Positions 8,407-64,000 of a stretch of DNA of 64,000 nucleotides are shown here, one piece after another (position 1 is the first letter of the stretch; the number at the start of each line of letters is the position of its first letter). The notes below the pieces were generated by a model. That model searched no databases. It saw nothing but the letters and a program-made list of their open reading frames with translations, and was not told the DNA's origin. Made by a program: the position numbers and the translations under genes. Source of the stretch: Steroidobacter agaridevorans. GTDB taxonomy: Bacteria > Pseudomonadota > Gammaproteobacteria > Steroidobacterales > Steroidobacteraceae. The stretch covers positions 620,001 through 684,000 of the forward strand of contig NZ_BLJO01000003.1 in the NCBI RefSeq assembly GCF_009932555.1, written 5' to 3'.

Positions 8407-9510
8407 ATGAAGATACTGATTCGACCATTTTTAGTTCTCGTGACTGGCCTGATTGGCGCCGGCACTTGTTGCGCGCAGTCGCGCCCTGCCGCCGGCACCG
8501 CGCCGCGCGTGATCGTCACTTCTGATTTCCCGCCGCTGGACGTCATTGCAGGCAAGAGCGGGCAGGGGCCCGCCGAAAAGCGCAGCGACCCGGACGATGT
8601 GCAGTCGATGGTGCGGTTCCTGCTGTATACGAACGACCTCGACGTCGAGGGGCTGGTCGCCTCAGCCGGCACGTTCGCCAACGTCGCAAACAAACGGCAC
8701 ATCCTAGATATCCTGGATCTCTACGACCAGGTCGATGAGAACCTTCGCCTGCGCGATGGTCGCTATCCGACTGCGGATCAATTGCGGGCGGTGACGTGGC
8801 AGGGCCGCTCCGGCACGTGGGGCAAACCCGTCGATGAGGTGATCGGGCAGGGTAAGGATTCGGAAGCTTCGCAAGCCATCATCCGGGCCGTGGACCGATC
8901 CGACCCTCGTCCGCTCTGGATCTGCGTCTGGGGCGGCTCGGGCGATGTGGCCCAGGCCATCTGGAAAGTACAGCAGACTCGCAGCCCGGCCGAACTGCAG
9001 CGTTTCATTGCAAAGCTGCGCATCTTCATGATCGGGCTGGGCCAGAAGACCGGGCAGGATGGCTCCGGGCAGTGGCTGCTGGATACGTTTCCGCAGTTGT
9101 TCGTCATCGTCTCGCAACGGACCTACGCGGGAATGTTTGCTCACGATTCACCCCTGGGCGATCTGCAGTGGATAAGCGCCAACGTTCGCGAAGGTCACGG
9201 TCCGTTGGGGGCGGTGTACCCGCGCAGCGGTTTCGATCCGGACGAGCCGGGCATGAAGGAAGGCGACACCCCCTCGTTCCTGCATCTGGTCAGCGCGACG
9301 CGCGGCTTGAACGATCCGGAGCAGCCCGATCAAGGTGGATGGGGCGGACAATACGCCCGACGCAATCCGGCCACGAGGCACTGGTACGATGACTCCGGCG
9401 CCGACAGCATTCGCAAGTGGCTCCCGGATATCCAATCTGATTTCGCGCAACGCGCGGACTGGATGCTGCCCAGGTCGGAGTCAGCCAACTCGGTCACGCG
9501 GCCTCGCTAG
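8407..9510 (+). CDS. DUF1593 nucleoside-hydrolase-like secreted protein
   Basis: Protein of 367 residues with a signal peptide (MKILIRPFLVLVTGLIGAG, then a CCAQ cleavage region). The mature part opens with RVIVTSDFPPLD and SDPDDVQSMVRFLLY. It resembles the acidic metal-binding N-terminus of inosine-uridine nucleoside hydrolases, as annotated for DUF1593. This family is common next to carbohydrate genes in polysaccharide-degrading bacteria, but its substrate is not established. Here it precedes an MFS transporter and a GH78 rhamnosidase and probably acts in the periplasm. ATG 8407 has no strong ribosome binding site; I accept it because the signal peptide begins there. Confidence 0.8.
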   Translation: MKILIRPFLVLVTGLIGAGTCCAQSRPAAGTAPRVIVTSDFPPLDVIAGKSGQGPAEKRSDPDDVQSMVRFLLYTNDLDVEGLVASAGTFANVANKRHILDILDLYDQVDENLRLRDGRYPTADQLRAVTWQGRSGTWGKPVDEVIGQGKDSEASQAIIRAVDRSDPRPLWICVWGGSGDVAQAIWKVQQTRSPAELQRFIAKLRIFMIGLGQKTGQDGSGQWLLDTFPQLFVIVSQRTYAGMFAHDSPLGDLQWISANVREGHGPLGAVYPRSGFDPDEPGMKEGDTPSFLHLVSATRGLNDPEQPDQGGWGGQYARRNPATRHWYDDSGADSIRKWLPDIQSDFAQRADWMLPRSESANSVTRPR

Positions 9511-11279: not shown

Positions 11280-14035
11280 TCGCGGCGCCCGGCGGCAGTC
11301 GATTGAGCATAGTCAATCTGCGTTGCGAGTATCTGGTCGATCCGCTCGGCATCGACGAACGGGCGCCACGCCTGAGCTGGATCCTCGAATCCGAGCGGCG
11401 GGGCGCAAGACAGATGGCGTACCGCATTCGCGTTGCCAGTACGGCGGAGAAGCTTGCGGCAGGCGAGGCTGATCGGTGGGACAGTGGGCGCGTCGAAAGC
11501 GGCCAGACTGCGCACGTCGTGTATGCGGGCAGTCCGCTATCTTCACGTGACGCTTGCCATTGGGACGTTGAAGTCTGGGATGAAAATGACTGCGCGGCGC
11601 GATCCGCCTGGGCGGCCTGGACGATGGGATTGCTGGAAGCATCGGCATGGACGGCGCATTGGATCTGCGCGCCGACGGAAATCATCGGTCGTGACGCGCA
11701 GGCCACTGCACCAACGCTGATCGATTCCGGCACCCCGGCGATGTTCCGCAGGGAGTTCGATGTGCCCGGCCCGATCTCGCGCGCGACGCTTTACGTCAGT
11801 GCTCGTGGTGTGTTCGAGCTGCGCGCCAACGGTCGTCGCGTCGGCGACGATATCTTCGCGCCGGAATGGACCGACTACGACATGCGCATTCACTACCGAA
11901 CATATGATGTCACCGCGCTGTTGGCGGAGGGGCGGAACGCGCTGGGCGCAACGCTCGGCGATGGTTGGTGGAGCGGTTACGTCGGATGGCAGGAGACGCG
12001 CGCCCGCTACGGATCGCTCGAAAACAGCCTGCTCGTGCAGCTGGAGATCGAGCTCACCGATGGCCGGCGCATCCTCATCGGCACCGATCGCTCGTGGACC
12101 TGCAACACCGGCCCGATCCTCAGCTCCGATTTCATGATGGGAGAATTCTACGACGCGCGCCGCGAACGCAGGGGATGGGATCAGCCGAGCTTTGCCCAGC
12201 AGGGTTGGCTCGCGGCTCGGGAAGTGGCCGCGCCTGCCGCAGTGCTGGTTGCACAGCGATCCGAACCGGTGCGTGTCGTCGAGCAACTCGCGCCGGTCGC
12301 CATGCACCAGATCGCGCTCGGAACATACATCTACGACCTCGGGCAGAACATCGCGGGCTGGGTTCGACTGAGAGTGCGCTCGCCCGCGGGCACACGTATC
12401 ACGATCCGACACGGCGAACGACTCAATCCGGACCGCACGCTCTACACCGACAATCTGCGCAGAGCCAAAGCCACTGACGTGTATGTCTGCAAGGGCGGCG
12501 GTGAAGAAACATTCCAACCGCATTTCACGTTCCACGGTTTTCAATACGTCGAGCTGTCCGGGCTCGCCGGTGTGCCGGATGAGCGAGCAGTGACAGGCTG
12601 CGTAGTGCGGTCCGCAACGCCGGAGGCAGGCGACTTCCTGTGCTCACATCCCGCGATCAATCGTCTGTGGCTGAATGGCCTGTGGTCGCAGAAGGATAAC
12701 TTCCTTTCCGTCCCTACCGATTGTCCTCAGCGCGACGAGCGGCTCGGGTGGATGGGCGATGCCCAGGTTTTCCTGCGGACCGCCAGCTACAACATGGATG
12801 TCGCTGCGTTCTTCACGAAGTGGATGATCGACGTAGCAGACGCGCAGACACCGGAAGGCATCTTTCCAGACACCGCGCCCCGCTTGCGCGAGGGCGAGAA
12901 TTTCGTTGGCCTGGACAATCTCGCCGGGTCGGCCGGCTGGGCCGATGCAGGTGTCATCGTGCCTTACATGATCTGGCGCATCTACGGTGACCGCCGGATC
13001 CTGGAGCGTCACTACGCGGCCATGGTCAAGTGGGTGGACTGGATCGCCTCGCGCAACCCGGATGGAATGCGCGTGCATGACTTGGGCAACAACTACGGCG
13101 ACTGGCTGTGCATTCCGAGCGACACCTCGTTCGGCACGCATTCACCGATGAAATACCTGCTCGCGACTGCGTACTGGGCCGACGATTGCGCCAAGCTGGC
13201 GCGCATCGCTCATGAACTCGGCCGAGAGTCGGACGCGCGGCGCTTCCGGAACATGTTCGAGCATGTGCGCGCGGCTTTCCAGAGGGAGTGGGTCGAGCCG
13301 AACGGGCGCGTCACGCCCAACACTCAAACGGGCTATCTGCTGGCGTTGGCTTTCGATCTGCTGCCAGTCGAGCTTCGCGGCGCGGCCGTCGATCACCTGG
13401 TGGAAAACATCCGCGCGCTGGACTGGCACTTGAGCACGGGCTTCATCGGCATCAGTCACCTGAATCCCGAGCTCACGTCGGCAGGCCGCGCGGACGTCGC
13501 GTATCGCCTGCTTGCCCGCGAGGACTATCCGTCGTGGCTGTACCCTGTGAAGCACGGCGCGACGACGATCTGGGAACGCTGGAACGGCTGGACGCACGAG
13601 GAACGTTATTTCAACCCGCACATGAATTCCTTCAATCACTATTCGCTCGGCTCCGTGGGCGAATGGCTGTTCCGGCACGTTGCCGGGATCGAGCTCGATC
13701 CCGAAGTGCCCGGCTTCCAGAGGTTCGTGCTGCGGCCGTTTCTCGGCGGCGGCCTGAGTTTCGCCCGGGCCCGCTTCCGCAGCATGCACGGCGAAATTGT
13801 AAGCGCCTGGCGGCGAGTCGGTGACGAAGTGACCTGGATCGTGCGCGTTCCAGCCAACACGACTGCGACGATATTCATTCCCAGCGCGCCGGGCTCGGCC
13901 GTTACCGAAGCGAATCAGCCCCTGGAGCAGACGGCAGGGCTGCAAGTGCTCGCTCGCGAGGGCGATTTCCTGGTCTGCGAAGCGCAGTCTGGTCGTTATG
14001 AGTTCGGCTCGGTATCGAGAGGTGTCTATGCATAA
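11276..14035 (+). CDS. Alpha-L-rhamnosidase, GH78
   Basis: Glycoside hydrolase of 919 residues that releases terminal alpha-L-rhamnose with inversion. Domains in family order: an N-terminal beta-sandwich (LRCEYLVDPLGID, PRLSWIL), a rhamnose-binding lectin-like part (DGWWSGYVGW), an (alpha/alpha)6 catalytic barrel from about residue 440, and a C-terminal beta-sandwich. The catalytic acid region DCPQRDERLGWMGDAQ is present (Glu near 488), and the base is Glu near 767 in TTIWERWNG. No signal peptide is seen, which suggests cytoplasmic action on sugars brought in by the MFS protein encoded just upstream. Operon with the flanking genes, overlapping both. Confidence 0.95.
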   Translation: MIAAPGGSRLSIVNLRCEYLVDPLGIDERAPRLSWILESERRGARQMAYRIRVASTAEKLAAGEADRWDSGRVESGQTAHVVYAGSPLSSRDACHWDVEVWDENDCAARSAWAAWTMGLLEASAWTAHWICAPTEIIGRDAQATAPTLIDSGTPAMFRREFDVPGPISRATLYVSARGVFELRANGRRVGDDIFAPEWTDYDMRIHYRTYDVTALLAEGRNALGATLGDGWWSGYVGWQETRARYGSLENSLLVQLEIELTDGRRILIGTDRSWTCNTGPILSSDFMMGEFYDARRERRGWDQPSFAQQGWLAAREVAAPAAVLVAQRSEPVRVVEQLAPVAMHQIALGTYIYDLGQNIAGWVRLRVRSPAGTRITIRHGERLNPDRTLYTDNLRRAKATDVYVCKGGGEETFQPHFTFHGFQYVELSGLAGVPDERAVTGCVVRSATPEAGDFLCSHPAINRLWLNGLWSQKDNFLSVPTDCPQRDERLGWMGDAQVFLRTASYNMDVAAFFTKWMIDVADAQTPEGIFPDTAPRLREGENFVGLDNLAGSAGWADAGVIVPYMIWRIYGDRRILERHYAAMVKWVDWIASRNPDGMRVHDLGNNYGDWLCIPSDTSFGTHSPMKYLLATAYWADDCAKLARIAHELGRESDARRFRNMFEHVRAAFQREWVEPNGRVTPNTQTGYLLALAFDLLPVELRGAAVDHLVENIRALDWHLSTGFIGISHLNPELTSAGRADVAYRLLAREDYPSWLYPVKHGATTIWERWNGWTHEERYFNPHMNSFNHYSLGSVGEWLFRHVAGIELDPEVPGFQRFVLRPFLGGGLSFARARFRSMHGEIVSAWRRVGDEVTWIVRVPANTTATIFIPSAPGSAVTEANQPLEQTAGLQVLAREGDFLVCEAQSGRYEFGSVSRGVYA

Positions 14036-18585: not shown

Positions 18586-19187
18586 GCTCGCGATCGGAAC
18601 GCACTCGATGCGGGCGGCGAGACCTGGTTGCCTCCTATGCGCTGGCTCTTCTGGACAGCAATGAAGCCGAGTTGATGGCTGCGCATCTGACCGTTTGCCC
18701 GGAGTGCCAGCAGGAGTACCACGCGGTAGGTGGGCTCACCGATGCGTTGAGCGCTCGGCGCGTGCAGGAGCTACCGCTTCCAACTCCGCTGTGGGAGCGC
18801 TTGCTGGAACGTATTGCCCATGTTCCGCAAAGGAAGATGCCATCGTCAGCCGCGTCCGCAGTGACCTCATCTGTCGCACAGGGTTGGCAAGAACCTCTAT
18901 GGAACGAGGTTGCTCCTGGCATTACCTGCAAACTATTGTCGATGGATGCCGAAAAGGATCGTGTGAGTATGCTTGTACGGCTCGCCCCAGGCATCTCTTA
19001 TCCCCCGCACAGTCACGCAGGCCTGGAAGAGTTGTACCTGCTGGAGGGGGAGCTGTGGATCGAGGATCGTAAACTTCAGCCAGGGGACTACAACAGGGCC
19101 GAGGTCGGCACTTCAGATCAGCGTGTCTGGAGCGAGTCGGGATGCATGTGCCTACTGATTACTTCGCCGCTGGACGAGCTCCGCTGA
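18582..19187 (+). CDS. ChrR-like cupin anti-sigma factor
   Basis: Cytoplasmic zinc-binding anti-sigma factor of 201 residues. The N-terminal ZAS domain shows H35-x3-C39-x2-C42 in AAHLTVCPECQQEY, which with an upstream residue would bind zinc and hold the sigma factor. The C-terminal half is a cupin (about 100-195) with PPHSHAGLEELYLLEGEL and GDYNRAEVG; its His-x-His and Glu are typical metal ligands of ChrR cupins, the likely sensing module. The gene overlaps the sigma gene, as is normal for these pairs. No target operon with a matching promoter was identified here. Confidence 0.9.
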   Translation: MSSRSERTRCGRRDLVASYALALLDSNEAELMAAHLTVCPECQQEYHAVGGLTDALSARRVQELPLPTPLWERLLERIAHVPQRKMPSSAASAVTSSVAQGWQEPLWNEVAPGITCKLLSMDAEKDRVSMLVRLAPGISYPPHSHAGLEELYLLEGELWIEDRKLQPGDYNRAEVGTSDQRVWSESGCMCLLITSPLDELR

Positions 19188-19434
19188 CACTCTGCTGATG
19201 CACGGTTAGGGTATCGCGGATCCCTTCGACCTTCCGCATGTCGACGAGTCGACAGACTGGCTTCCCACTGGGCGCACCGGGCGCAGACCTGGAGCGCGTG
19301 TACTCGATCGGCGTGCGAATCGCATTCGACTGGCGACGTTGCTTCAGGCTAAATTGGCGCGGGTGCCGGGCGATTCGTTCCGGTAGGCAAAGAGGTTGGT
19401 CGGGCCGCCAGTCTCCTATTTGGAGCAATGTGTC

Positions 19435-54035: not shown

Positions 54036-55095
54036 TGCTGTTGCCTTAGCTGATGTCGCCGCACCAGACACGCGGGGTGTGCGCGAAGCGCAGACTTCCC
54101 TCGCGATGACTCTGCGTCCGCTCGCGCCGTGGTTGTCGCGACCCGAGGTCACGGAGGTCTGCATCAACCGACCAGGGGAGTTGTTCGTCGAATCACAGTC
54201 CGGCTGGCAGCGCGAAGCGTTGCCCGTCGCAACGTTCGATTGGTGTTTGCGTCTGGCCAAGTTGATCGCGCATTCGACCCACCAACGCATCGCTGAGGAT
54301 GCGCCGCTGCTATCAGCAACACTTCCTGGCGGAGAGCGCATTCAGATCGTCTTGCCGCCTGCTGCGTCGGCCGGGACTATCACGATGGCGATAAGGCGCC
54401 CGTCGCCGTGCACCTGGTCGCTCGAGGAACTCGCCGCTCAAGGTTTGTTTGGTCGCACCCGTCGTGCACGTGACGCGCTGGATGGTAGCGAGGAGACGCT
54501 TGTGCGTCTGCTGGCCGCTGGCGACTACGAACAGTTCTTGCGCCTCGCCGTGCATACCCGACGTAACATTATCGTCTCCGGAGCTACAGGCACCGGAAAA
54601 ACCACGTTCACGCGAGCACTCATCTGCGACATCCCCGTCCACGAGCGGCTGATCACCATCGAGGACGCGGCCGAACTCACGCTCGATCGCCACCCGAATC
54701 ACGTGAGATTGTTCTATTCGAAGGGCGGGCAGAGCGGCGCGTCGGTATCGCCCAAGCAGCTTCTCGAATGTTCGTTGCGCCTGCGGCCCGATCGCATTCT
54801 GCTCGCAGAGCTGCGCGCGGAGGAGGCCTGGGACTATCTGCGCTCGGTCGCTTCTGGTCATCCCGGTTCGATCACCAGCATCCACGCGTCGAGCGCAACA
54901 CTCGCCTTCGAGCAACTGACATTGCTTGTCCAGCAGAGTCGCGCCGGTGCGGCGCTTGCGCCTGATGACATCCGGAAACTGCTCCATCAGTTGGTCGACG
55001 TCGTCGTGCAGTTCGGGCGCGACGGGCGGGATCGATACATCACGGAGGTGTGGTATGAGCCTGCACGCAAGCGCAGTCAGGACTACCGCGCATAA
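54013..55095 (+). CDS. virB11: VirB11-type traffic ATPase
   Basis: Hexameric secretion ATPase of 360 residues. Walker A is SGATGTGKTT near residue 190, Walker B and Asp box are TIEDAAEL, followed by the His box region SVASGHPGSITSIHASSATLAFEQL. N-terminal beta domain: WLSRPEVTEVCINRPGELFVES. ATG 54013 follows GGAGG by 4 bases and overlaps the virB10 end by 23 bases. It powers pilus assembly and DNA transfer jointly with VirB4. Confidence 0.95.
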   Translation: MSFASRGSAVALADVAAPDTRGVREAQTSLAMTLRPLAPWLSRPEVTEVCINRPGELFVESQSGWQREALPVATFDWCLRLAKLIAHSTHQRIAEDAPLLSATLPGGERIQIVLPPAASAGTITMAIRRPSPCTWSLEELAAQGLFGRTRRARDALDGSEETLVRLLAAGDYEQFLRLAVHTRRNIIVSGATGTGKTTFTRALICDIPVHERLITIEDAAELTLDRHPNHVRLFYSKGGQSGASVSPKQLLECSLRLRPDRILLAELRAEEAWDYLRSVASGHPGSITSIHASSATLAFEQLTLLVQQSRAGAALAPDDIRKLLHQLVDVVVQFGRDGRDRYITEVWYEPARKRSQDYRA

Positions 55096-57031
55096 ACGTC
55101 CGATCTCACGAGCGGCGTGGGTGCTCGCCTGTGGTACCGCTGCGGTGATCGTCGCGCAGTGGCTTGCGGGTTATCTCTTACTGTGGTCACTCGATGTTGC
55201 CGCGTTCAACGCAACGCCGCTGACTACATCTCGATATCTCTATTACTACGGCGATCGACCGCAGATACGTCGACGCGTGCTCGTCTGCTCGGTGTTGAGT
55301 TTCGGTGTGGTGGGCATCGCGGCAGTTGCGGCGGGCTGGCCGCAGCCCCGTCCACTGCACGGCGCTGCGCGATTCGAACATCGACGCGAAATCAAGCGCG
55401 CCGGGCTGCTCGGCGAGGAGGGGCTTCTGCTCGGCGAGATGCACGGTCGATATCTCGTCCTTCCGGGTCAGCAAGGCGTCGCGCTCGCCGCGCCGCCGAG
55501 GGCGGGTAAAGGTGTCGGCGTAGTGATTCCGAATCTCCTGAATTGGGCAGGTAGTGCGGTCTGCGTCGACATCAAGCGAGAGAACTGGACGATCACCGCC
55601 GGATACCGTGCAGCTCAAGGCTACGACTGCTTTTTATTTGATCCCTTGTCTGACTCTGGGTTTACCGCCGCTTGGAATCCATTGAGCTATGTGAGCCCGA
55701 TTCCAGATCAGCGGGTCAACGATTTGCAGCGCATCGGCAGCATGCTCTATCCGGAAGTCCCTGGTACCGATCCGTTCTGGATTGCATCGGCGCGGTCGCT
55801 CTTTTTGGGCATCGGCTTGTATCTATTCGAGACGCCGTCCTTGCCAAAGACGGTGGGCGAGATTCTGCGGCAAGGCATGGCATCTGACGATGAAGGATTT
55901 GGTGCCCACTGGAAACGAATCGTCCAAGGCCGTAACAGCGGCCGCTATCCCTTGTCGCCGACGTGTGTGCGTGCGCTCTACGATGTGATCGATCTTGCGC
56001 CGGTGACCGCGAGCTCGATCCGGAAAACATTCACGAGCCGGCTCGATCTGTGGCTAAACCCAATTCTGGATCGAGCGACCGCGCGCAACGATTTTGATCT
56101 GCGTGACCTGCGACGCCGGCCCATGAGCATCTATGTCGCAGTCAATCCGGACGATTTACACCGGCTGCGTCCGGTGCTGTCGCTGTTCTTCGAGCAGGCA
56201 ATCGGTTTGCAGACGCGTACTCTCCCGGAACACGACCCGACACTGAAGCTGCAGGTGATGATGCTGCTGGATGAATGTCCGGCGCTCGGCCGTATTCCGA
56301 TTCTGTCAGAAGCCATCAGCTATGTGCCCGGTTACAACGTGCGAGTGCTGATGGTATTTCAGGCACCTTCGCAGCTGCGCGAGGTGTATGGACCCGAGAA
56401 CAGCCGAACAATTCTAAAGAGTTTGGGTGCTCGCATCGCGTTTGCGGCAAGGGATTATGAGGATGCGAGGGAGATCTCAGAGGATCTTGGCGATACGACC
56501 GTGCGCGTGCGCTCGCGCTCGCTTCCACAGTTCGCTGGATGGGGTCTGTCATCGCGAGGTGCGACGATATCGGTGAGCGAACAGAAACGACCGCTGCTAT
56601 TACCTCAGGAGGTGAAAGAGCTCGGCAGCCATGAGGAGATCGTGTTCTGCGAGGGGCTGCGGCCGATTCGCGCTCAAAAAATCTGCTATTGGTGCGATCC
56701 CCGCTTTATGGCTCGACTGTTGCCGGCCCCAACGTTGCCGCTACCCAGATCCTATAACTCGCAATCGTCCAGCGCGATGAACGGTCGTTCCCCGAATCTC
56801 CAGACAGAGAGTGTCCCCATGGAAGCATCCGTCGTCCTGCCTGCGGAAGGTGCCGCCACGAGTGCGCGGCCAGCAGCGGCCGCTGACCTCGACCGACTAG
56901 ATGAACTCAAGCTGGAAGACTTCGCTTGTGACTTCTCGCAGGTGGAGTTCCCTACACATGATGGGCCTTGGAGCGACGCGGAGATGCAGACCGCCGTGGA
57001 CAGCTTCATGGCCGCGCTCGAGACGAGGTGA
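55055..57031 (+). CDS. virD4: VirD4/TraG-type coupling protein
   Basis: Type IV coupling protein of 658 residues that delivers the relaxase-DNA complex to the channel. It has two N-terminal membrane helices (about 20-45 and 65-95), then Walker A APPRAGKG near residue 148 and Walker B with LLDECPALGRI near 405. ATG 55055 follows GGAGG by about 7 bases and overlaps the virB11 end by 41 bases. The C-terminal 100 residues are a low-complexity acidic tail (SNMNGRS-like, ending QTAVDSFMAALETR). Confidence 0.93.
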   Translation: MSLHASAVRTTAHKRPISRAAWVLACGTAAVIVAQWLAGYLLLWSLDVAAFNATPLTTSRYLYYYGDRPQIRRRVLVCSVLSFGVVGIAAVAAGWPQPRPLHGAARFEHRREIKRAGLLGEEGLLLGEMHGRYLVLPGQQGVALAAPPRAGKGVGVVIPNLLNWAGSAVCVDIKRENWTITAGYRAAQGYDCFLFDPLSDSGFTAAWNPLSYVSPIPDQRVNDLQRIGSMLYPEVPGTDPFWIASARSLFLGIGLYLFETPSLPKTVGEILRQGMASDDEGFGAHWKRIVQGRNSGRYPLSPTCVRALYDVIDLAPVTASSIRKTFTSRLDLWLNPILDRATARNDFDLRDLRRRPMSIYVAVNPDDLHRLRPVLSLFFEQAIGLQTRTLPEHDPTLKLQVMMLLDECPALGRIPILSEAISYVPGYNVRVLMVFQAPSQLREVYGPENSRTILKSLGARIAFAARDYEDAREISEDLGDTTVRVRSRSLPQFAGWGLSSRGATISVSEQKRPLLLPQEVKELGSHEEIVFCEGLRPIRAQKICYWCDPRFMARLLPAPTLPLPRSYNSQSSSAMNGRSPNLQTESVPMEASVVLPAEGAATSARPAAAADLDRLDELKLEDFACDFSQVEFPTHDGPWSDAEMQTAVDSFMAALETR

Positions 57032-57037
57032 GCCATC

Positions 57038-57823
57038 ATGGCGAATCCGCGCGAGCGCTCTCCATCCGCTGCGTCAACCGTAGCCGGAACGTGGCGACGC
57101 GCAGCAGACGTCGCTGCCGCTGCGCTCGATCCGCCGCGGCCCGAGGTGGATCGCGTGACCTTCGGTCGCTTCATTGATCACGGGCCCGGCCGGCACGAGG
57201 GCAAGCCCGACGCGCCGCAGTCCTATTTCGTGAAGCTTGCGACGGAGCGTGGCGAGCGTGTGTTCTGGTCTCCGGCGCTAAAGACTGCGCTCGCGCAATC
57301 GCGCACACAACCGAAGATCGGGGAGCAGGTTGGCGTGCGAGAGAACAGTATTCTGCCGGCCACAGTTCTTTACAGCGCGCGCGATAGTGCCGGGAAGGTA
57401 GTTGAGCAACGCCGCTTCGACTCACCGCGAACTCACTGGGCGATTGAAGAGCGAGCGTTCTACGACGAGGCACTGCTTGCGGCGGAAGCCTTGCGGAGCG
57501 AGCGACTGCATCCGCGCGAAGCAATCAAAACCTACCCGCAGCTGCTGCCCGCGTACCTCGCGCTCGATTCCGCGCGGCGAGTCGCGAAAGAGAGAGTCTC
57601 CCCGACGCAGCGAGATAGATTCGTCTCGCTGGTCCGCGAGACATTGGCGCACGCTGTTGAGCGGGGTATGCCACTGCCGGTCCTCGAGAGACGAACGGCG
57701 GATGCGCCTGCAGCCCCATCCGTAGCCGCTTCGTCTCCTGCCACGTCATCGTCGTCAAACTCGTCGCACCCCATAGCCGTCGGTCCCCGTGTGACCACGC
57801 GCCCGAGTGCGCGCACCCGTTAG
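57038..57823 (+). CDS. Conjugation-associated protein with HG-module, copy 1
   Basis: Soluble protein of 261 residues. A module at about 30-100 reads VTFGRFIDHGPGRHEG, then SYFVKLATERGERVFWSPALKTALAQ, which recurs in the proteins encoded at 57840 and 60020. It is followed by a helical region (AEALRSERLHPREAI, RFVSLVRETLAHAVERG) that also recurs. Seven bases after virD4. Related sequences occur fused to TraI/MobA-type relaxases and in large plasmid proteins. No relaxase motif (three His) is seen here. Function unknown. Confidence 0.68.
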   Translation: MANPRERSPSAASTVAGTWRRAADVAAAALDPPRPEVDRVTFGRFIDHGPGRHEGKPDAPQSYFVKLATERGERVFWSPALKTALAQSRTQPKIGEQVGVRENSILPATVLYSARDSAGKVVEQRRFDSPRTHWAIEERAFYDEALLAAEALRSERLHPREAIKTYPQLLPAYLALDSARRVAKERVSPTQRDRFVSLVRETLAHAVERGMPLPVLERRTADAPAAPSVAASSPATSSSSNSSHPIAVGPRVTTRPSARTR

Positions 57824-57839
57824 CTGCGAGGAGATGTTC

Positions 57840-59384
57840 ATGGTCGACATTACTCCGCCAACACCGCCATCACGGCCCGCAGGCCCAGCGAGCAAACGTG
57901 CCCGCGGGGAGCCACTGACAAATGAGCTGCGGCCCTCACCGGCGATCGTTAGTTGGATCGATCGAGCTGTTCAGCGCATCACCTCGGATCCTCCGTGGAC
58001 TTATCAGGCCGATCCGACAGCTGCGTCGCGCGCGGACGCCCGACGGCTATTACCGGAGCTCGAGCCGGAGCCAGAAGGATTCGCGCCAAGGGCGGCATCG
58101 CAGCCACAGGCGGGACCGCCAGCCATTTGGGCGCCGCGCTCAGCGCCGCTCGATACGCGTTCAGTCCCAGAGGATGTGCGCGAACGTTTCGTGCGAATGG
58201 GGCGCTATTACTACTTTCCGGGTGGCAACGTCGCTTTCGAGGACAAAGGAAAGAAGGTAGTTACTCGCTCCGAGAACACTGAGGTTGTGCGCAGCCTTGT
58301 CGAGATTGCTCAGGCGCGCGGTTGGAATGACATCACCGTCTCTGGTACGGAGCGTTTCAGGCGCGAGGCATGGCGACAGGCGACTTACGCTGGGCTAGTG
58401 GTGCGTGGCTATGAGCCGACCGAACAGGACAAGCGGCAGTTTGTACGCGACCTGGCCAAAGCTCGCTCTGCGCAAGAGTCGCTTGAACCTTTGATCGACC
58501 CGCCACGACCAGTGATTCCTTCGTCGTATCGAGGAATGTCGACGCCTGCGGCGTCAGCCGCCCCTGAACGAGGGGCCGAGATGCCCCGGCAGACGCAGAT
58601 GTCGTTCGAACGCGAAGCGAATCGGGAGCGCAATGCGCCCTTGACGGCATCGAATCGGCACGGCGCCAAGCCACCCCAGGCCGATCCGGCGCCTGCGGTA
58701 TCGACACTCGAGCCAGAGGTGGTGAGCAATGGGGGGCGCAAAGGAACGCGCAGTGGATCGCAGCGTTCGCGGGTGTATGCCGGGCGGCTAATCGAGCATG
58801 GCGAAGCCCGCTACAAATTCCGCGACGACCAGGAGCCGTCCTATTTCGTTCGCCTTGAAACTGCCAACGGGACGAAAGAACTCTGGGGCGTTGATTTCCC
58901 CCGCGCCCTGAATCAAGCCGGAGTGAAGGAGGGCGACCTCGTTGAAGTGGAGCTCACGGGCCGTAAGAGCGTTGCCGTGAAACGGCCTGCGCGCGATGCG
59001 GAGGGACGTGTGCTCGGAGAAGAGGAAGTTTCCGCTCACCGTAACGAATGGGACGTGCGTCAGCAAGCACGCGGGTCGAATGGCAGCTCTCGCGCGAACG
59101 GTTCCCCGTACAGCCCTCGTAGCCAAGCATTGCATGAGCCGTCCGCCTTGGCACGGGAATCCGCGCGTGACGACTCGGCGCTCACGAACGCGCTGGCGAC
59201 ACTCAGGGCAGCTGAGTTGCTCGCAGAGGCTCGGATACCCGACGTCGCTTTGCGAGGTCAGTTCGTTGAAGGAGTGCGTGCACAGTTATCGCAGGTGCTC
59301 GACAGCGAGGCAACACCCGCAGCTCCGCAGTTGCGGGAGCGAACAGTCCAGCGCGTACGAACTCCCGCGCGCGCCTTGAGCTGA
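57840..59384 (+). CDS. LPD7-domain protein with HG-module, copy 2
   Basis: Protein of about 514 residues. Middle part (about 110-220) is the LPD7 domain: VRMGRYYYFPGGNVAFEDKGKKV, TRSENTEVVRSLVEIAQARGWNDITVSGTERFRREAWRQA. It is followed by a basic Pro/Arg-rich stretch, then the module (about 310-385) VYAGRLIEHGEARYKFRDD, SYFVRLETANGTKELWGVDF. C-terminal helices (LATLRAAELLAEARIP, FVEGVRAQLSQVL) recur in copies 1 and 3. LPD7 is usually the C-terminal part of relaxases; here no relaxase catalytic domain precedes it. ATG 57840 follows GCGAGGAG by about 7 bases; overlaps the end of the previous open frame nowhere. Confidence 0.75.
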   Translation: MVDITPPTPPSRPAGPASKRARGEPLTNELRPSPAIVSWIDRAVQRITSDPPWTYQADPTAASRADARRLLPELEPEPEGFAPRAASQPQAGPPAIWAPRSAPLDTRSVPEDVRERFVRMGRYYYFPGGNVAFEDKGKKVVTRSENTEVVRSLVEIAQARGWNDITVSGTERFRREAWRQATYAGLVVRGYEPTEQDKRQFVRDLAKARSAQESLEPLIDPPRPVIPSSYRGMSTPAASAAPERGAEMPRQTQMSFEREANRERNAPLTASNRHGAKPPQADPAPAVSTLEPEVVSNGGRKGTRSGSQRSRVYAGRLIEHGEARYKFRDDQEPSYFVRLETANGTKELWGVDFPRALNQAGVKEGDLVEVELTGRKSVAVKRPARDAEGRVLGEEEVSAHRNEWDVRQQARGSNGSSRANGSPYSPRSQALHEPSALARESARDDSALTNALATLRAAELLAEARIPDVALRGQFVEGVRAQLSQVLDSEATPAAPQLRERTVQRVRTPARALS

Positions 59385-60808: not shown

Positions 60809-60944
60809 AACGAAGCGACGACACGTAACGCCCCTGAGCAAGCATCTCCTCGGCAGAGGCCTGTCGTAAATCCGACGGATAACAAAACTGACGATACGCG
60901 CGGCGGGATTGCTGAACGGGCCAGACTATCACGGCGATCCCTCC

Positions 60945-61036
60945 GTCAAGGACGAGTGCGAAGCACTCGCCGCCTGCGGCGGTTTGCATCCTTGACTACG
61001 GGCCACGTCGCGATGTCTGCCCGTCGGGCAATCCCG
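60945..61036 (+). promoter_or_regulatory. Structured leader A (before DUF932 gene)
   Basis: Outer stem GTCAAGGA (60945-60952) with TCCTTGAC (60989-60996), 8 bp. It encloses hairpin P2 CGAGTGC/GCACTCG (60953-60969, GAA loop) and hairpin P3 CCGCC/GGCGG (60970-60982). A CGGGCAATCCCG hairpin (61025-61036) follows, 27 bases before the ATG of the DUF932 gene. Shares its plan with leaders B, C and E. Confidence 0.72.
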
Positions 61037-61063
61037 CCCAAATCAATCGAATGAGGAATCGTC

Positions 61064-61891
61064 ATGGATACCATCCAGACACTGCTCGGCGACGTCCAGA
61101 TCGATAGCGCCTTCAACGATGGGCTTGATCGCGCGCAACTGGAGAGGCTAACACCAGCAGCATACACGACAGCTCCGCATGCAAAGCTGTCTACGAGGTA
61201 CGCGTTCTTGCCTACCTCGAGCGTCATCGAAACTATGAGCACGGCCGGCTTCAACGTCGTTCAAGCCGCGCAATCTCGTTCTCGCAAACAGCAGCCAGAG
61301 TTTGCATGTCACGCCCTGCGCTTTCGGAAAGCCAAATCCGCCGTGTTCATTGGGGAAGTTGTGCCGGAGATCCTGATACTCAACTCGCATGACGGGACGA
61401 GCGCGTACCAGGTCCGGATCGCTCTGTTTCGAGCAATTTGTGGGAACGGCATGATCGTGAGCGACACCGCATTTCCCTGCTGGCGAGTACCACATCGGGG
61501 CAGCGCCCCCATGGAGGTTTTGGAGGCAGCATTGCGACTCTCGGATCACTTCGGCGAGGTCAGTGCTGTCATCGATCGGATGCGCCACTTCCCTCTGGAT
61601 GAGGAACAACGTCTCGAGTTTGCAAGCGACGCGCTTGCTATTCGATATCCCGATGAACCCGTTGGGCACGCCGTTTCTCCGGCCGAGCTCCTTGTTGCAA
61701 GACGTCCTGAGGACGAGGGAACCGACTTGTGGCACACGCTCAATGTCGTGCAGGAGTACCTCCTGCGCGGCGGCGCTCGACGGATTACTGCTACCAAACG
61801 CCAGGTGAGGATGCGAGGTATCGGTGCAATTCGCGAGGGCGTTCGACTCAACACAGCTTTGTGGGAGCGAGCCATGGTTGAGTTGGCGTAA
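61064..61891 (+). CDS. DUF932 protein
   Basis: Protein of 275 residues of a family frequent on plasmids and phages. It shows LSTRYAFLPTSSVIETMSTAGFNVVQA, EILILNSHDGTSAYQVRIALFRAICGNGMI and a C-terminal helical tail (WHTLNVVQEYLLRGG), the DUF932 blocks. Function is not established; related genes sit in transfer leading regions. It is preceded by leader A and followed by a terminator-like hairpin. Confidence 0.85.
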   Translation: MDTIQTLLGDVQIDSAFNDGLDRAQLERLTPAAYTTAPHAKLSTRYAFLPTSSVIETMSTAGFNVVQAAQSRSRKQQPEFACHALRFRKAKSAVFIGEVVPEILILNSHDGTSAYQVRIALFRAICGNGMIVSDTAFPCWRVPHRGSAPMEVLEAALRLSDHFGEVSAVIDRMRHFPLDEEQRLEFASDALAIRYPDEPVGHAVSPAELLVARRPEDEGTDLWHTLNVVQEYLLRGGARRITATKRQVRMRGIGAIREGVRLNTALWERAMVELA

Positions 61892-61898
61892 CGCCAAG

Positions 61899-61927
61899 TG
61901 GGAGGGGCGCTGGAGGCGTCCCTCCCA
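61899..61927 (+). terminator. Terminator after the DUF932 gene
   Basis: TGGGAGGG pairs with CCCTCCCA around a 13-base loop, starting 8 bases after the DUF932 stop. It is followed by TTCTTGT, weakly T-rich. Confidence 0.6.
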
Positions 61928-61988
61928 TTCTTGTCCACACTCAGAATGCGTATCGAGGCCACATTGAGTGCCTGCCTGTTCCAGTCTG

Positions 61989-62100
61989 CCACATCGGTCT
62001 TCACCTTCCAGGCCGAGGCCGGACGGCCTCGCAAGGCGCAAGCGACCTGGAAGCTGAAGACCGGTGTGGCGTGCCACTCCCGCAGGCAATCTCGCTTGCG
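61989..62100 (+). promoter_or_regulatory. Structured leader D (before the 107-residue gene)
   Basis: Outer stem of 15 pairs with one G-U (61989-62003 with 62055-62069). Inside it is CTTCCAGG/CCTGGAAG (62005-62012 with 62046-62053), then hairpin CGAGGCC/GGCCTCG (62014-62031). Only a very small third hairpin is present. CGCAGGCAATCTCGCTTGCG (62081-62100) follows, 17 bases before the ATG. The stem is longer than in A or B. Confidence 0.72.
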
Positions 62101-62117
62101 ATCTTTCGGAGTGTGTC

Positions 62118-62441
62118 ATGAGTCGTCATATCTTCGATGCCGAGGTGCAGGAACAGCCCGTTCGCGTGACGATTGGATACGACCGGCCCACCGCCAAGTT
62201 CTATCTGCACATCGGTTGGGTGGATTCCCAAACCGACGAGATCTTGTCCTACGCCTCGGATCTTAGCCTCGCTTACGAACCGTCCGATTTGAGGTCGATT
62301 CGCCGATTTCTGGACAAAACCGGGATCGAGTCGCCTGCAGCTGTCTGGGCGGAAGTGTCATTCGATGCGACGAGTAAGGCTGGAAATCGCGTTGTGAAGC
62401 ATTCGAGTGACGGCACTATGCGTGAGCTCGCTGCTTGGTGA
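62118..62441 (+). CDS. Small conserved-type hypothetical protein
   Basis: Protein of 107 residues, no family recognised. Beta-rich start (MSRHIFDAEVQEQPVRVTIGYDRP) with FYLHIGWVD, then a helix DLRSIRRFLDKTGI and a final beta region. Starts at ATG 62118 after GGAGTG and leader D. Probably a small accessory gene of the element's right region. Confidence 0.62.
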   Translation: MSRHIFDAEVQEQPVRVTIGYDRPTAKFYLHIGWVDSQTDEILSYASDLSLAYEPSDLRSIRRFLDKTGIESPAAVWAEVSFDATSKAGNRVVKHSSDGTMRELAAW

Positions 62442-62592
62442 CGTGAATCGTCTGAGCGAGAGCATCGGGTACTTCGCTGAACTAGCCGGTGCTCCCCTTC
62501 ACACGCATTATTGCGTGGACGCGCTTCGCTTTGTTCTGTTCGCGCATACGGCCTGACCTTGCTGGATGGCCGACCTTGCCTGTTGCGAAGTT

Positions 62593-62709
62593 ACCGACTC
62601 CGATTCCACCGACCAAAGAGTCGCGCAGAGGCGCGCCCGCCGCGGACGGCGGCTTCGCTCTTTGGCGTCCGAATCGGAGTCGGTGCCTTATCGCGGGCAA
62701 GTTCGCCCG
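62593..62709 (+). promoter_or_regulatory. Structured leader C
   Basis: Outermost perfect 14-bp stem ACCGACTCCGATTC (62593-62606) with GAATCGGAGTCGGT (62671-62684). Inside is CCAAAGAG (62613-62620) with CTCTTTGG (62658-62665), enclosing hairpins CGCGC/GCGCG (62622-62635) and CCGCCG/CGGCGG (62637-62652). A GGGCAA hairpin (CGGGC/GCCCG, 62694-62709) follows, and the ATG is 16 bases further on. Confidence 0.78.
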
Positions 62710-62724
62710 AGAAGGAGAGATGTC

Positions 62725-63081
62725 ATGAACGACTCAATGGAGAGCACTGACGCCAACTCGACCGACACAGATGCGATGGCTTCCGCCCCGGTATCTCAAA
62801 GGCTCGCGGAATTGGCGAGTCAACTTCGCGAAGCTGGCATCGTGCAGTTGGTCGCGGTCTATGAACGCGAGAACTGCGTGACGACATTCACAGTAACTTG
62901 TGTCGATGCTCAGCAGCGCATCGGCTTATCACCATGCCCGATTCTGGTACTTGCTGAGGTGATAAGCATCTACGGGATACTTGTGCGCCAGTACGCTGAG
63001 GAAGGCGACAAGCGAGCGAGGGGACAGTTTGATTGGTATGTCCTTGATAACAAACTCACTCACGAGCACAAGAGCGCGTGA
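62725..63081 (+). CDS. Small hypothetical protein, paralogue of the next gene
   Basis: Protein of 118 residues. After a Thr/Asp/Ser-rich N-terminus (about 1-22) the body reads VSQRLAELASQLREAGIVQLVAVYE, and the end is RGQFDWYVLDNKLTHEHKSA. The same order (SQR helix, central region, F-(D/E)-W, LTH-x-H end) is found in the protein encoded at 63331. No known family. ATG 62725 follows AAGGAGAG by 6 bases. Confidence 0.65.
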   Translation: MNDSMESTDANSTDTDAMASAPVSQRLAELASQLREAGIVQLVAVYERENCVTTFTVTCVDAQQRIGLSPCPILVLAEVISIYGILVRQYAEEGDKRARGQFDWYVLDNKLTHEHKSA

Positions 63082-63221
63082 CGCGACGTTGGGTCGCTGC
63101 GTCTAGGAGCGCGCGGAGCGCAAGGATGCGCTCCAACCCCACGCGGGATAAGCGTACTTCCGAATGTCGAGAGTAGGGAGGATTGCCTGATTGCGCGAAG
63201 ATAGCACGCCGTGCTCGCCGC

Positions 63222-63313
63222 CAAGAGTCGTGCATATGCACGACCGCCGCAGACGGCGGCTCCGCTCTTGACGGCTGCGCGCGCCGAGCTGGATCGAGCG
63301 CGGGCAATCCCGC
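63222..63313 (+). promoter_or_regulatory. Structured leader B
   Basis: CAAGAG (63222-63227) pairs with CTCTTG (63265-63270) and encloses two perfect hairpins: TCGTGCATATGCACGA (63228-63243) and CCGCCG/CGGCGG (63244-63259). Then GCGGG/CCCGC around CAAT (63300-63313), 17 bases before the ATG at 63331. Confidence 0.78.
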
Positions 63314-63330
63314 CCAGGCGGAGAGCGATC

Positions 63331-63729
63331 ATGAGCGACCGAACGAACGGAACCTCGTCAGACGCGCGAGAAGAGCGGTCTCAAACTCCACATTTGTCCC
63401 AAAGGATGCCGGCAGTAGCGGCAGCGCTGCGGCGGTCGAATGTAGCGTATGTGCGGATCGTGTACGACGGTGCTTGGGACACTGGACGAATGAGCGATCC
63501 GCTCTTCTATAGCGAAAATTTAGTACTTTTCAACCCGCTACTCAGCTCGAAAACCTATCGAGCTCTCTCACTATTCTTTCGAGAGCTGCTCGAGACACGC
63601 CACCCGGGCTGGCAAAACGCGGAAGGTTCGCGTGGCGAGTTTGAATGGGAGTTGGTGAGAGATCAGTTGACTCACATCCATGGCTGGCGACACTTCAGCT
63701 ATGACTTCGAAACCGTAGAAGGCTTGTGA
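63331..63729 (+). CDS. Small hypothetical protein, paralogue of 62725-63081
   Basis: Protein of 132 residues. LSQRMPAVAAALRRSNVAYVRIVYDG and GEFEWELVRDQLTHIHG parallel the preceding protein, although identity outside these is low. The central part (FNPLLSSKTYRALSLFFRELLETRHPGW) is helical. ATG 63331 follows GGCGGAGAG. It is preceded by leader B. Function unknown. Confidence 0.65.
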   Translation: MSDRTNGTSSDAREERSQTPHLSQRMPAVAAALRRSNVAYVRIVYDGAWDTGRMSDPLFYSENLVLFNPLLSSKTYRALSLFFRELLETRHPGWQNAEGSRGEFEWELVRDQLTHIHGWRHFSYDFETVEGL

Positions 63730-63734
63730 CCTCT

Positions 63735-63768
63735 GCTGAGGCGTGGACTTACAGGTCCGCGCCTCAGC
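63735..63768 (+). terminator. Strong stem-loop after the last small gene
   Basis: GCTGAGGCG and GGAC pair with GTCC and CGCCTCAGC, joined by a T-G pair, 14 pairs in all with a 6-base loop. It starts 5 bases after the stop codon. No T-run follows. It may be a terminator or an mRNA 3' stabiliser. Confidence 0.5.
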
Positions 63769-63888
63769 GTTAGCTACGCGCGATTCTCGGACTTCCCAGA
63801 CCGGAGTCGATGTCACAGTTCAGATGATCCGGTCCGTCCATCCGAATGCCTGGCGAGCTGATGCGAATTGCCTGCATTCAATGAGTAT

Positions 63889-64000
63889 GCCCCACCGTTC
63901 TCGCCGTCAATGCCTGCGCGCGACTGCGTCGTGCTCGCGAGCGCGCTTCGCGCGGCACTGACGGCTGCGCTTCGGTGGGGCGGGTCCTCGATGCAGGCAA
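63889..64000 (+). promoter_or_regulatory. Structured leader E, cut by the window end
   Basis: Outer GCCCCACCG (63889-63897) with CGGTGGGGC (63973-63981). Inner GCCGTCA (63903-63909) with TGACGGC (63959-63965) encloses a 7-bp hairpin at 63918-63934 (one G-U) and a GCGCG/CGCGC hairpin at 63941-63953. The window ends in GCAGGCAA, the start of the GGCAA hairpin seen in the other leaders. Its gene lies beyond the window. Confidence 0.65.

Follow-up and report, generated by a model that had tools for sequence, protein, structure and literature searches.

What is the function of five similar hairpins that stand one behind another, each before its own gene, at the right end of a 64,000-nt stretch of the Steroidobacter agaridevorans genome (contig NZ_BLJO01000003.1, positions 620,001 to 684,000; hereafter the window)? 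These leaders, named A, D, C, B and E from left to right, precede five consecutive genes. The first encodes a DUF932 protein, the next three are small, and the fifth, past the end of the window, is radC-like by its translation. The array lies inside what looks like an integrative conjugative element (ICE) of the MOBP type. An initial annotation of the sequence had offered two explanations, an RNA element of the 5' untranslated region (5'-UTR), possibly the radC motif of Rfam, or a single-stranded DNA (ssDNA) promoter like Frpo/ssi of the F plasmid leading region. The structure of the leaders, its covariation, the tandem arrangement and the Frpo/ssi-like side of this proposal were supported, and the radC RNA side was not. 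Judging from the sequence analysis, we put the probability at roughly 80% that the leaders form a family unrelated in sequence to Frpo/ssi that works as these ssDNA promoters do, one per gene, in the leading region of a MOBP ICE.

All five leaders are present and are larger than first described, as hairpins of 135-148 nt that fold better than shuffled sequences (z -2.8 to -6.3; Table 1). Dinucleotide shuffles folding equally well numbered 0, 0, 0, 1 and 0 of 200 for A, D, C, B and E. A local minimum-energy scan blurred the units, and an inverted-repeat scan restricted to Watson-Crick pairs and neutral as to strand was used instead. Across 83.5 kb (the window and its continuation), leaders C, D, E and A took the first four ranks; leader B was absent from the matches scoring at least 60. 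First-order shuffles of equal length gave matches in only one of five, namely three of score 63. The outer stem reads TTGCC...GGCAA. The GGCAA box, which had been assigned to a separate hairpin, is present as the right arm of this stem, although GGGCAATCCCGCCC could still fold locally into a small hairpin in an mRNA.

Covariation was assessed in an alignment of 32 leaders, comprising the five of the window and 27 from elements elsewhere; leaders whose central domain is longer were reserved for a separate alignment. Relatives of the element's relaxase had been collected from 25 of 100 genomes of the family and from nine loci in named genomes, and 35 loci were scanned once three duplicates were dropped. 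RNAalifold on alignment A3 yielded only 16 pairs, and a hand-drawn structure of 33 pairs was counted instead. In this structure 85.2% of the cells are paired, compared with 34-46% when the arms are slid against each other, and both sides are changed in 96 cells (21-29 when slid), with 23 pairs showing such change. None of 500 shuffles matched any of the five covariation measures, and the earlier suggestion that stem sequences differ between copies with pairing kept is thus borne out across homologues. The outer stem is among the weaker helices in the alignment (71% paired) because its register shifts between leaders; with each sequence aligned individually, mostly 7-11 of its 11 pairs form, where shuffles reach about 6.

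A promoter motif lies on one arm only. The left arm, taken on the bottom strand in the direction from loop to base, carries TTGACG, 15 nt and TAnnCT, with TG before the -10. Among the 32 leaders, the equivalents of -11A and -7T are conserved in 29 and 30, the two positions of the TG extension are kept in 27 and 29, and the third and fourth -10 positions vary almost freely. Of the 190 cells facing the -10, only 51 (27%) are Watson-Crick, compared with 88.6% in the flanking -35 helix and 86.6% in the spacer helix, and on the right arm 12-17 nt separate the spacer helix from GGCAA (2 nt in one misplaced row). The alignment points to an unpaired bubble of about 13 nt at the -10. A transcription bubble, extending from -11 to +2, has about the same size. 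The right arm, which any conventional gene-directed promoter would use, has no -10.

The same asymmetry was observed among inverted repeats 0.2-9 kb upstream of relaxases. With duplicates removed, a relaxed form of the motif occurs on the left arm of 26/56 and on the right arm of 0/56 such repeats; elsewhere the counts are 4/33 and 1/33, and two of these four outside left-arm matches (L051, L059) resemble leaders just past the 9-kb limit. The strict motif was found on 20 left arms and no right arm upstream of relaxases, and on 1 and 0 elsewhere. A position weight matrix (PWM) trained on the 27 leaders from outside the window gave left-arm p values of 0.0005 (A), 0.0075 (D), 0.0070 (B), 0.0025 (E) and 0.45 (C), so that four of the five are significant. 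In leader A the right arm scores 3.8 against 22.2 for the left, and it is also lower in D and E.

A motif of this kind could in principle serve duplex DNA, as a conventional leftward promoter or as part of a protein-binding inverted repeat; it does point leftward in the duplex, and inverted repeats are common as protein sites. A leftward RNA would, however, be antisense to the preceding gene, and compensatory changes preserve a partner arm that is nevertheless unpaired at the -10, a combination relevant only for a folded strand. We consider a duplex function highly improbable.

Which strand would fold is indicated by a second motif. TATCCTG occurs on the bottom strand of all 5 plasmids and of 23 of the 32 genome loci, together 28 of 37, at 550-792 nt ahead of the relaxase match, with 0.09 expected per 1200 nt; on the top strand it occurs in four loci at scattered positions. 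The copy in the element of the window lies at L004:3407-3413, between the parB-like and mobC-like genes. TATCCTG|C is the IncP-type nic consensus. If it is valid here, the bottom strand would be transferred, its 5' end lying at the nick; the leading region would then include the array, and the bottom strand would be the template of the leader genes. Hairpins that combine the promoter motif with a score of at least 45 lie between 0.2 and 9 kb upstream of the relaxase in 16 of the 35 loci. They are oriented uniformly, with 35 matches on the bottom strand and none on the top (33 of them distinct, since one hairpin was hit twice and one copy is common to L006 and L048), compared with 4 and 3 elsewhere. 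At scores of 36-44 the strands upstream are even (7 bottom, 6 top). In plasmid pLS20 the transferred strand is described as the non-template strand, which speaks against such promoters there (PMC8708921).

From these features we infer the strand that is nicked, the binding of polymerase, the start site and the timing of expression. The relaxase would nick between the parB-like gene and mobC and send the bottom strand 5' end first, so that the array region would reach the recipient early. On the entering bottom strand, each leader would fold into a long hairpin whose 3' half (the complement of the left arm) would supply the non-template -35 and extended -10, and whose 5' half (the complement of the right arm) would be the template, continuing into the gene. 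The halves would pair at the -35 and the spacer, stay open for about 13 nt from the -10 on and pair again at TTGCC/GGCAA. Because the unpaired stretch would resemble a ready-made open complex, RNA polymerase holoenzyme could bind with little or no melting. Transcription would run toward the origin of transfer, one gene per hairpin, until second-strand synthesis removes the hairpin and the gene goes silent. Priming of the second strand may be a by-product.

The genes behind the leaders fit such a role. Among 40 proteins counted (two doubtful L071 readings were excluded from 42), Pfam families included RadC (8), DUF932 (8), Antirestrict (5), N6_N4_Mtase (3) and DUF6878 (3); one is a large helicase/methylase-like protein, and the remainder have no informative family. 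By their families, these genes appear to be of the anti-restriction and establishment type. Islands in leading regions are described as carrying anti-restriction and methylase genes (PMC11541004), and on entry pESBL is protected by a methyltransferase whose gene lies behind Frpo (PMC7736820). The hairpins could alternatively act mainly as single-strand origins, letting RNA polymerase or primase prime the second strand in the recipient. A polymerase-binding hairpin would serve both ends, and Frpo is reported to prime DNA synthesis too (PMC7736820). Five gene-directed copies, each right before a start codon, exceed what priming needs, and genes of the establishment type behind them also argue against it; we regard priming as a distinctly improbable main function. 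The single-strand origin of ICEBs1 is likewise a folded site on the entering strand of an integrative element that acts in the recipient, but it is described as a replication origin, unlike the leaders, which would be promoters before genes (PMC4595007).

The other half of the original proposal was an RNA. A cis-regulatory RNA, transcribed into the 5'-UTR from an upstream duplex promoter and controlling translation or stability of the mRNA, would show the same sense-strand structure and covariation, and the leaders do lie close before start codons, with a median of 33 nt between GGCAA and ATG (in 37 of 42 leaders). The bottom-strand -35 and -10, present on the left arm only, and the unpaired bases there are left unexplained by this alternative. 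There is also no excess of G.U pairs on the sense strand: single mismatches were G.T in 52 and A.C in 66 of 272 (676 and 631 in controls; the difference is not significant), and the two main helices, with G.T 8 and A.C 22, are suggestive. A scan of the array found no conventional sigma-70-like promoter, with 0.8 expected, and no Rfam family covers a leader. Two terminators were found in the array, compared with 2.4 expected, so that we do not claim one terminator per gene. Overall, an RNA function appears unlikely.

The Rfam radC RNA (RF01754) is located before radC and other DNA-handling genes of mobile elements, and the suggestion that the leaders are members was not upheld. It had no match in the array at the gathering score or up to E = 5, and its 16 weak matches in the same genome lie elsewhere, none on a leader. 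Across 299 genomes searched, RF01754 exceeded its cut-off in four genomes of one genus, and the inverted-repeat scan showed no long hairpin at the match in seven genuine RF01754 loci. At the gathering score, Rfam had a single match in the window (nhaA-I, not a leader), and a permissive search of the array gave three chance-level microRNA (miRNA) models, none on a leader. In a permissive search of a related locus (L053), miRNA precursor models reached E = 1.1e-4 but stayed far below their gathering scores, and these matches were taken to reflect no more than a likeness of hairpins.

The closest functional parallel is found in Frpo1 and Frpo2 of F and in ssi2 and ssi3 of ColIb-P9, which, like the leaders, are long hairpins upstream of leading-region genes read from the transferred strand. 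In these systems -35 and -10 elements are rebuilt by folding (PMC9849209, PMC7736820). By computation, the leaders share the predicted leading-region place with the transferred strand as template, the long hairpin and a rebuilt -35/-10 directed toward the gene; the unpaired -10, the nic-like site and the establishment genes also agree with the Frpo/ssi-like promoter first proposed. In F, as behind leader A, a DUF932 gene follows Frpo1 (by position). As a positive control, the leading region of F (NC_002483) was scanned in the same way. A tandem repeat array ranked first; two hairpins shared the second rank, one where Frpo1 lies (18670-18987) and one preceding an antirestriction gene (11481-11719), and a hairpin at the place of Frpo2 was fourth, the positions of Frpo1 and Frpo2 being those given in PMC9849209. 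By eye, the bottom-strand arm of the hairpin at L112:11481-11719 of F reads TTGCAT-15-TAAGAT with three unpaired bases at the -10, and a further long F hairpin (L112:7661-7825) has TTGCAT-15-TAACGT.

Sequence homology to the F leading region was not found. Our model of the leaders, R1, had no match there up to E = 1, and among the blastn matches listed between the leaders and this region none exceeds 35 nt. Judged on the F leading region, the leaders would thus fall outside Frpo/ssi by sequence. They also differ in length (about 140 nt, compared with about 318 in F). Their arrangement, five in succession with a copy for each gene, their location in an integrated element and a -10 that lies in a bubble of about 13 nt further distinguish them from Frpo/ssi.

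Several observations weigh against the ssDNA promoter reading. The motif is not significant in leader C, where the right arm scores higher than the left (6.2 against 1.1), so that C rests on fold, place and homology; in leader B the arms are nearly equal (8.4 right, 9.6 left). A 15-nt spacer is short for sigma-70. Motif-bearing hairpins were absent from 19 of the 35 related loci, several of which are cut by contig ends, and 30 of the 56 inverted repeats upstream of relaxases have no motif; some of these 30 are leaders of the C or D type and many resemble chance repeats in coding DNA. The 33-pair structure was derived from the alignment on which it was then tested, and this gives it an advantage over its slid versions. 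The F control covers hairpin and place rather than the bubble, because the -35 and -10 of Frpo1 and Frpo2 were not located. Finally, TATCCTG was not found before the relaxase-like gene of a Tn4371-like element.

The leaders extend beyond the family. The -35 and spacer pattern alone, without the -10, was found in 10 of 369 genomes (2 of 369 for a reversed control). Outside the S. agaridevorans genome, four of ten pattern matches, in three of nine genomes, extend to a -10-like sequence and a GCAA box and match R1; the other six are not leader-like by appearance, the R1 comparison having covered the four. Among 398 genomes of the phylum, model R1 detected leaders in nine, and eight of these belong to three other families; the matches listed in the 8-Mb genome of S. 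agaridevorans were seven, namely the five window leaders and two in a second integrative element. Among 16 distinct leaders from other families (20 matches), the relaxed motif is on the left arm of 13 and on no right arm, a count not fully independent since R1 includes the motif columns. One such leader has relatives in 262 plasmid records, of which 241 are typed conjugative; in pPSP-75c of Pantoea it sits before radC, in a region that looks by gene order like a Tn4371-type element. Searched against plasmids, leader B gave three short matches; two lie under a ggt gene and the third under a gene for a transporter.

The leaders of a sister class have a central core in common; of the 56 plasmid records that contain it, 46 belong to Xanthomonas. 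On the sense strand the core reads CTTTCGCGGCATAAACGG ... GCGGGTCCCC ... CCATTTATTCCACG and varies hardly at all among Steroidobacteraceae, Xanthomonas plasmids and Curtobacterium (L006:8892-10203, L053:6762-8884, L101-L104; alignment A6). By eye and without statistics, left arms of this class carry TTGCTG-17-CAGGTT (X. albilineans), TTGCGG-16-TACCTT (Eleftheria) and TTGCAT-16-TACGCT (Curtobacterium), and the right arms show no counterpart motif. The core could be an UP-like element or a primase or SSB site, and under the single-strand origin alternative it could represent a priming module. In F, parts of the core are found again ahead of a DNA methylase gene (L112, about 9000-9060).

Taken to its full extent, the proposal is that the leaders mimic open promoter complexes (-35, extended -10 and about 13 nt melted) and form a per-gene entry programme, present only while the DNA is single-stranded, in integrative elements of several gammaproteobacterial families, Tn4371-like ones among them; the core of the sister class, which extends to Xanthomonas MOBF plasmids and Curtobacterium (Actinomycetota), would point to a second, conserved recruiting module. 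We hold this wider version only tentatively, at slightly less than an even chance.

New here are an unrelated family of sequences, its location in integrative elements, the arrangement with one hairpin for each gene and a -10 left unpaired. No description of these leaders was found in the literature searched, to which preprints, subscription journals and supplements did not belong. To find ssDNA promoters, two large surveys relied mainly on BLAST, using Frpo sequences that were either known or candidates (PMC11541004, PMC12826799). In one of them, by Samuel et al. (2024), candidates were defined by folding and a promoter consensus upstream of leading-region anti-defence genes, and the BLAST searches that yielded them started from five known sequences and from candidates in four islands (PMC11541004); these candidates may overlap with the leader family. 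Judged on the F leading region, the leaders show no such similarity; they lie in chromosomal integrative elements and provide most leading-region genes with a copy of their own. Their signature, a promoter on the gene-distal arm with an unpaired -10, offers a sequence-independent rule for finding such promoters. It would predict which genes a conjugative element first switches on in a new host, and indicates candidate anti-defence genes such as the small uncharacterised genes here.

Table 1. Positions of the leaders, their candidate promoters and neighbouring genes. L004 is the stretch running rightward past the window; L004:361-508 corresponds to leader E.
Feature	Position	Strand	Remarks
Leader A	60901..61039	-	before DUF932 gene; R1 105 bits; fold z -6.2
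Leader A, candidate promoter	-35 TTGACG, complement 60944-60949; -10 TAGTCT, complement 60923-60928		spacer 15
Leader D	61961..62097	-	R1 52 bits; fold z -6.3
Leader D, candidate promoter	-35-like TGGAAG, complement 62005-62010; -10 CAGACT, complement 61983-61988		spacer 16
Leader C	62568..62708	-	R1 72 bits; fold z -4.1
Leader C, possible promoter	TTGGTC, complement 62611-62616; TAACTT, complement 62588-62593		spacer 17; not significant by PWM
Leader B	63176..63315	-	R1 107 bits; fold z -2.8
Leader B, candidate promoter	-35 TTGGCG, complement 63219-63224; -10 TATCTT, complement 63198-63203		TG extension; spacer 15
Leader E	63861-64008	-	ends 8 nt past the window; before radC-like gene; R1 90 bits; fold z -3.4
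Leader E, candidate promoter	-35 TTGACG, complement 63905-63910; -10 CATACT, complement 63884-63889		spacer 15
DUF932 gene behind leader A	61064..61891	+	Pfam PF06067, E 1.4e-35
Small gene behind leader D	62118..62441	+	no Pfam match to enclosing reading frame
Small gene behind leader C	62725..63081	+	no Pfam match to enclosing reading frame
Small gene behind leader B (DUF6878)	63331..63729	+	Pfam PF21798, E 6e-7
Type IV secretion system coupling protein	54926-57031		
LPD7 protein	57807-59384		
Relaxase	L004:3974-4969		translation by eye, supported by relaxase homology searches
Integrase	L004:11858-13279		by eye from translation; adjoins tRNA-dihydrouridine-synthase-like gene

Beyond the window, the radC-like gene is accompanied by parB-like and mobC-like genes, all named by eye from their translations, and among named genomes Peristeroidobacter soli has the relaxase closest to that of the element (87% identity). 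Before the parB-like gene, a stem AAAATCCG/CGGATTTT around two GC-rich hairpins (L004:1150-1290) resembles the leader core; its inverted repeat is weak (score 36) and it has no clear promoter, and it is perhaps a diverged sixth leader. The second integrative element of the same genome (L006, G000:C3:70001-90000) has three such leaders, one of them before a DNA methylase gene, and a third related relaxase lies near a contig end (G000:C9:475249). At some distance from the array, positions 19361-19413 of the window hold an nhaA-I riboswitch candidate (42.1 bits, with a gathering score of 37).

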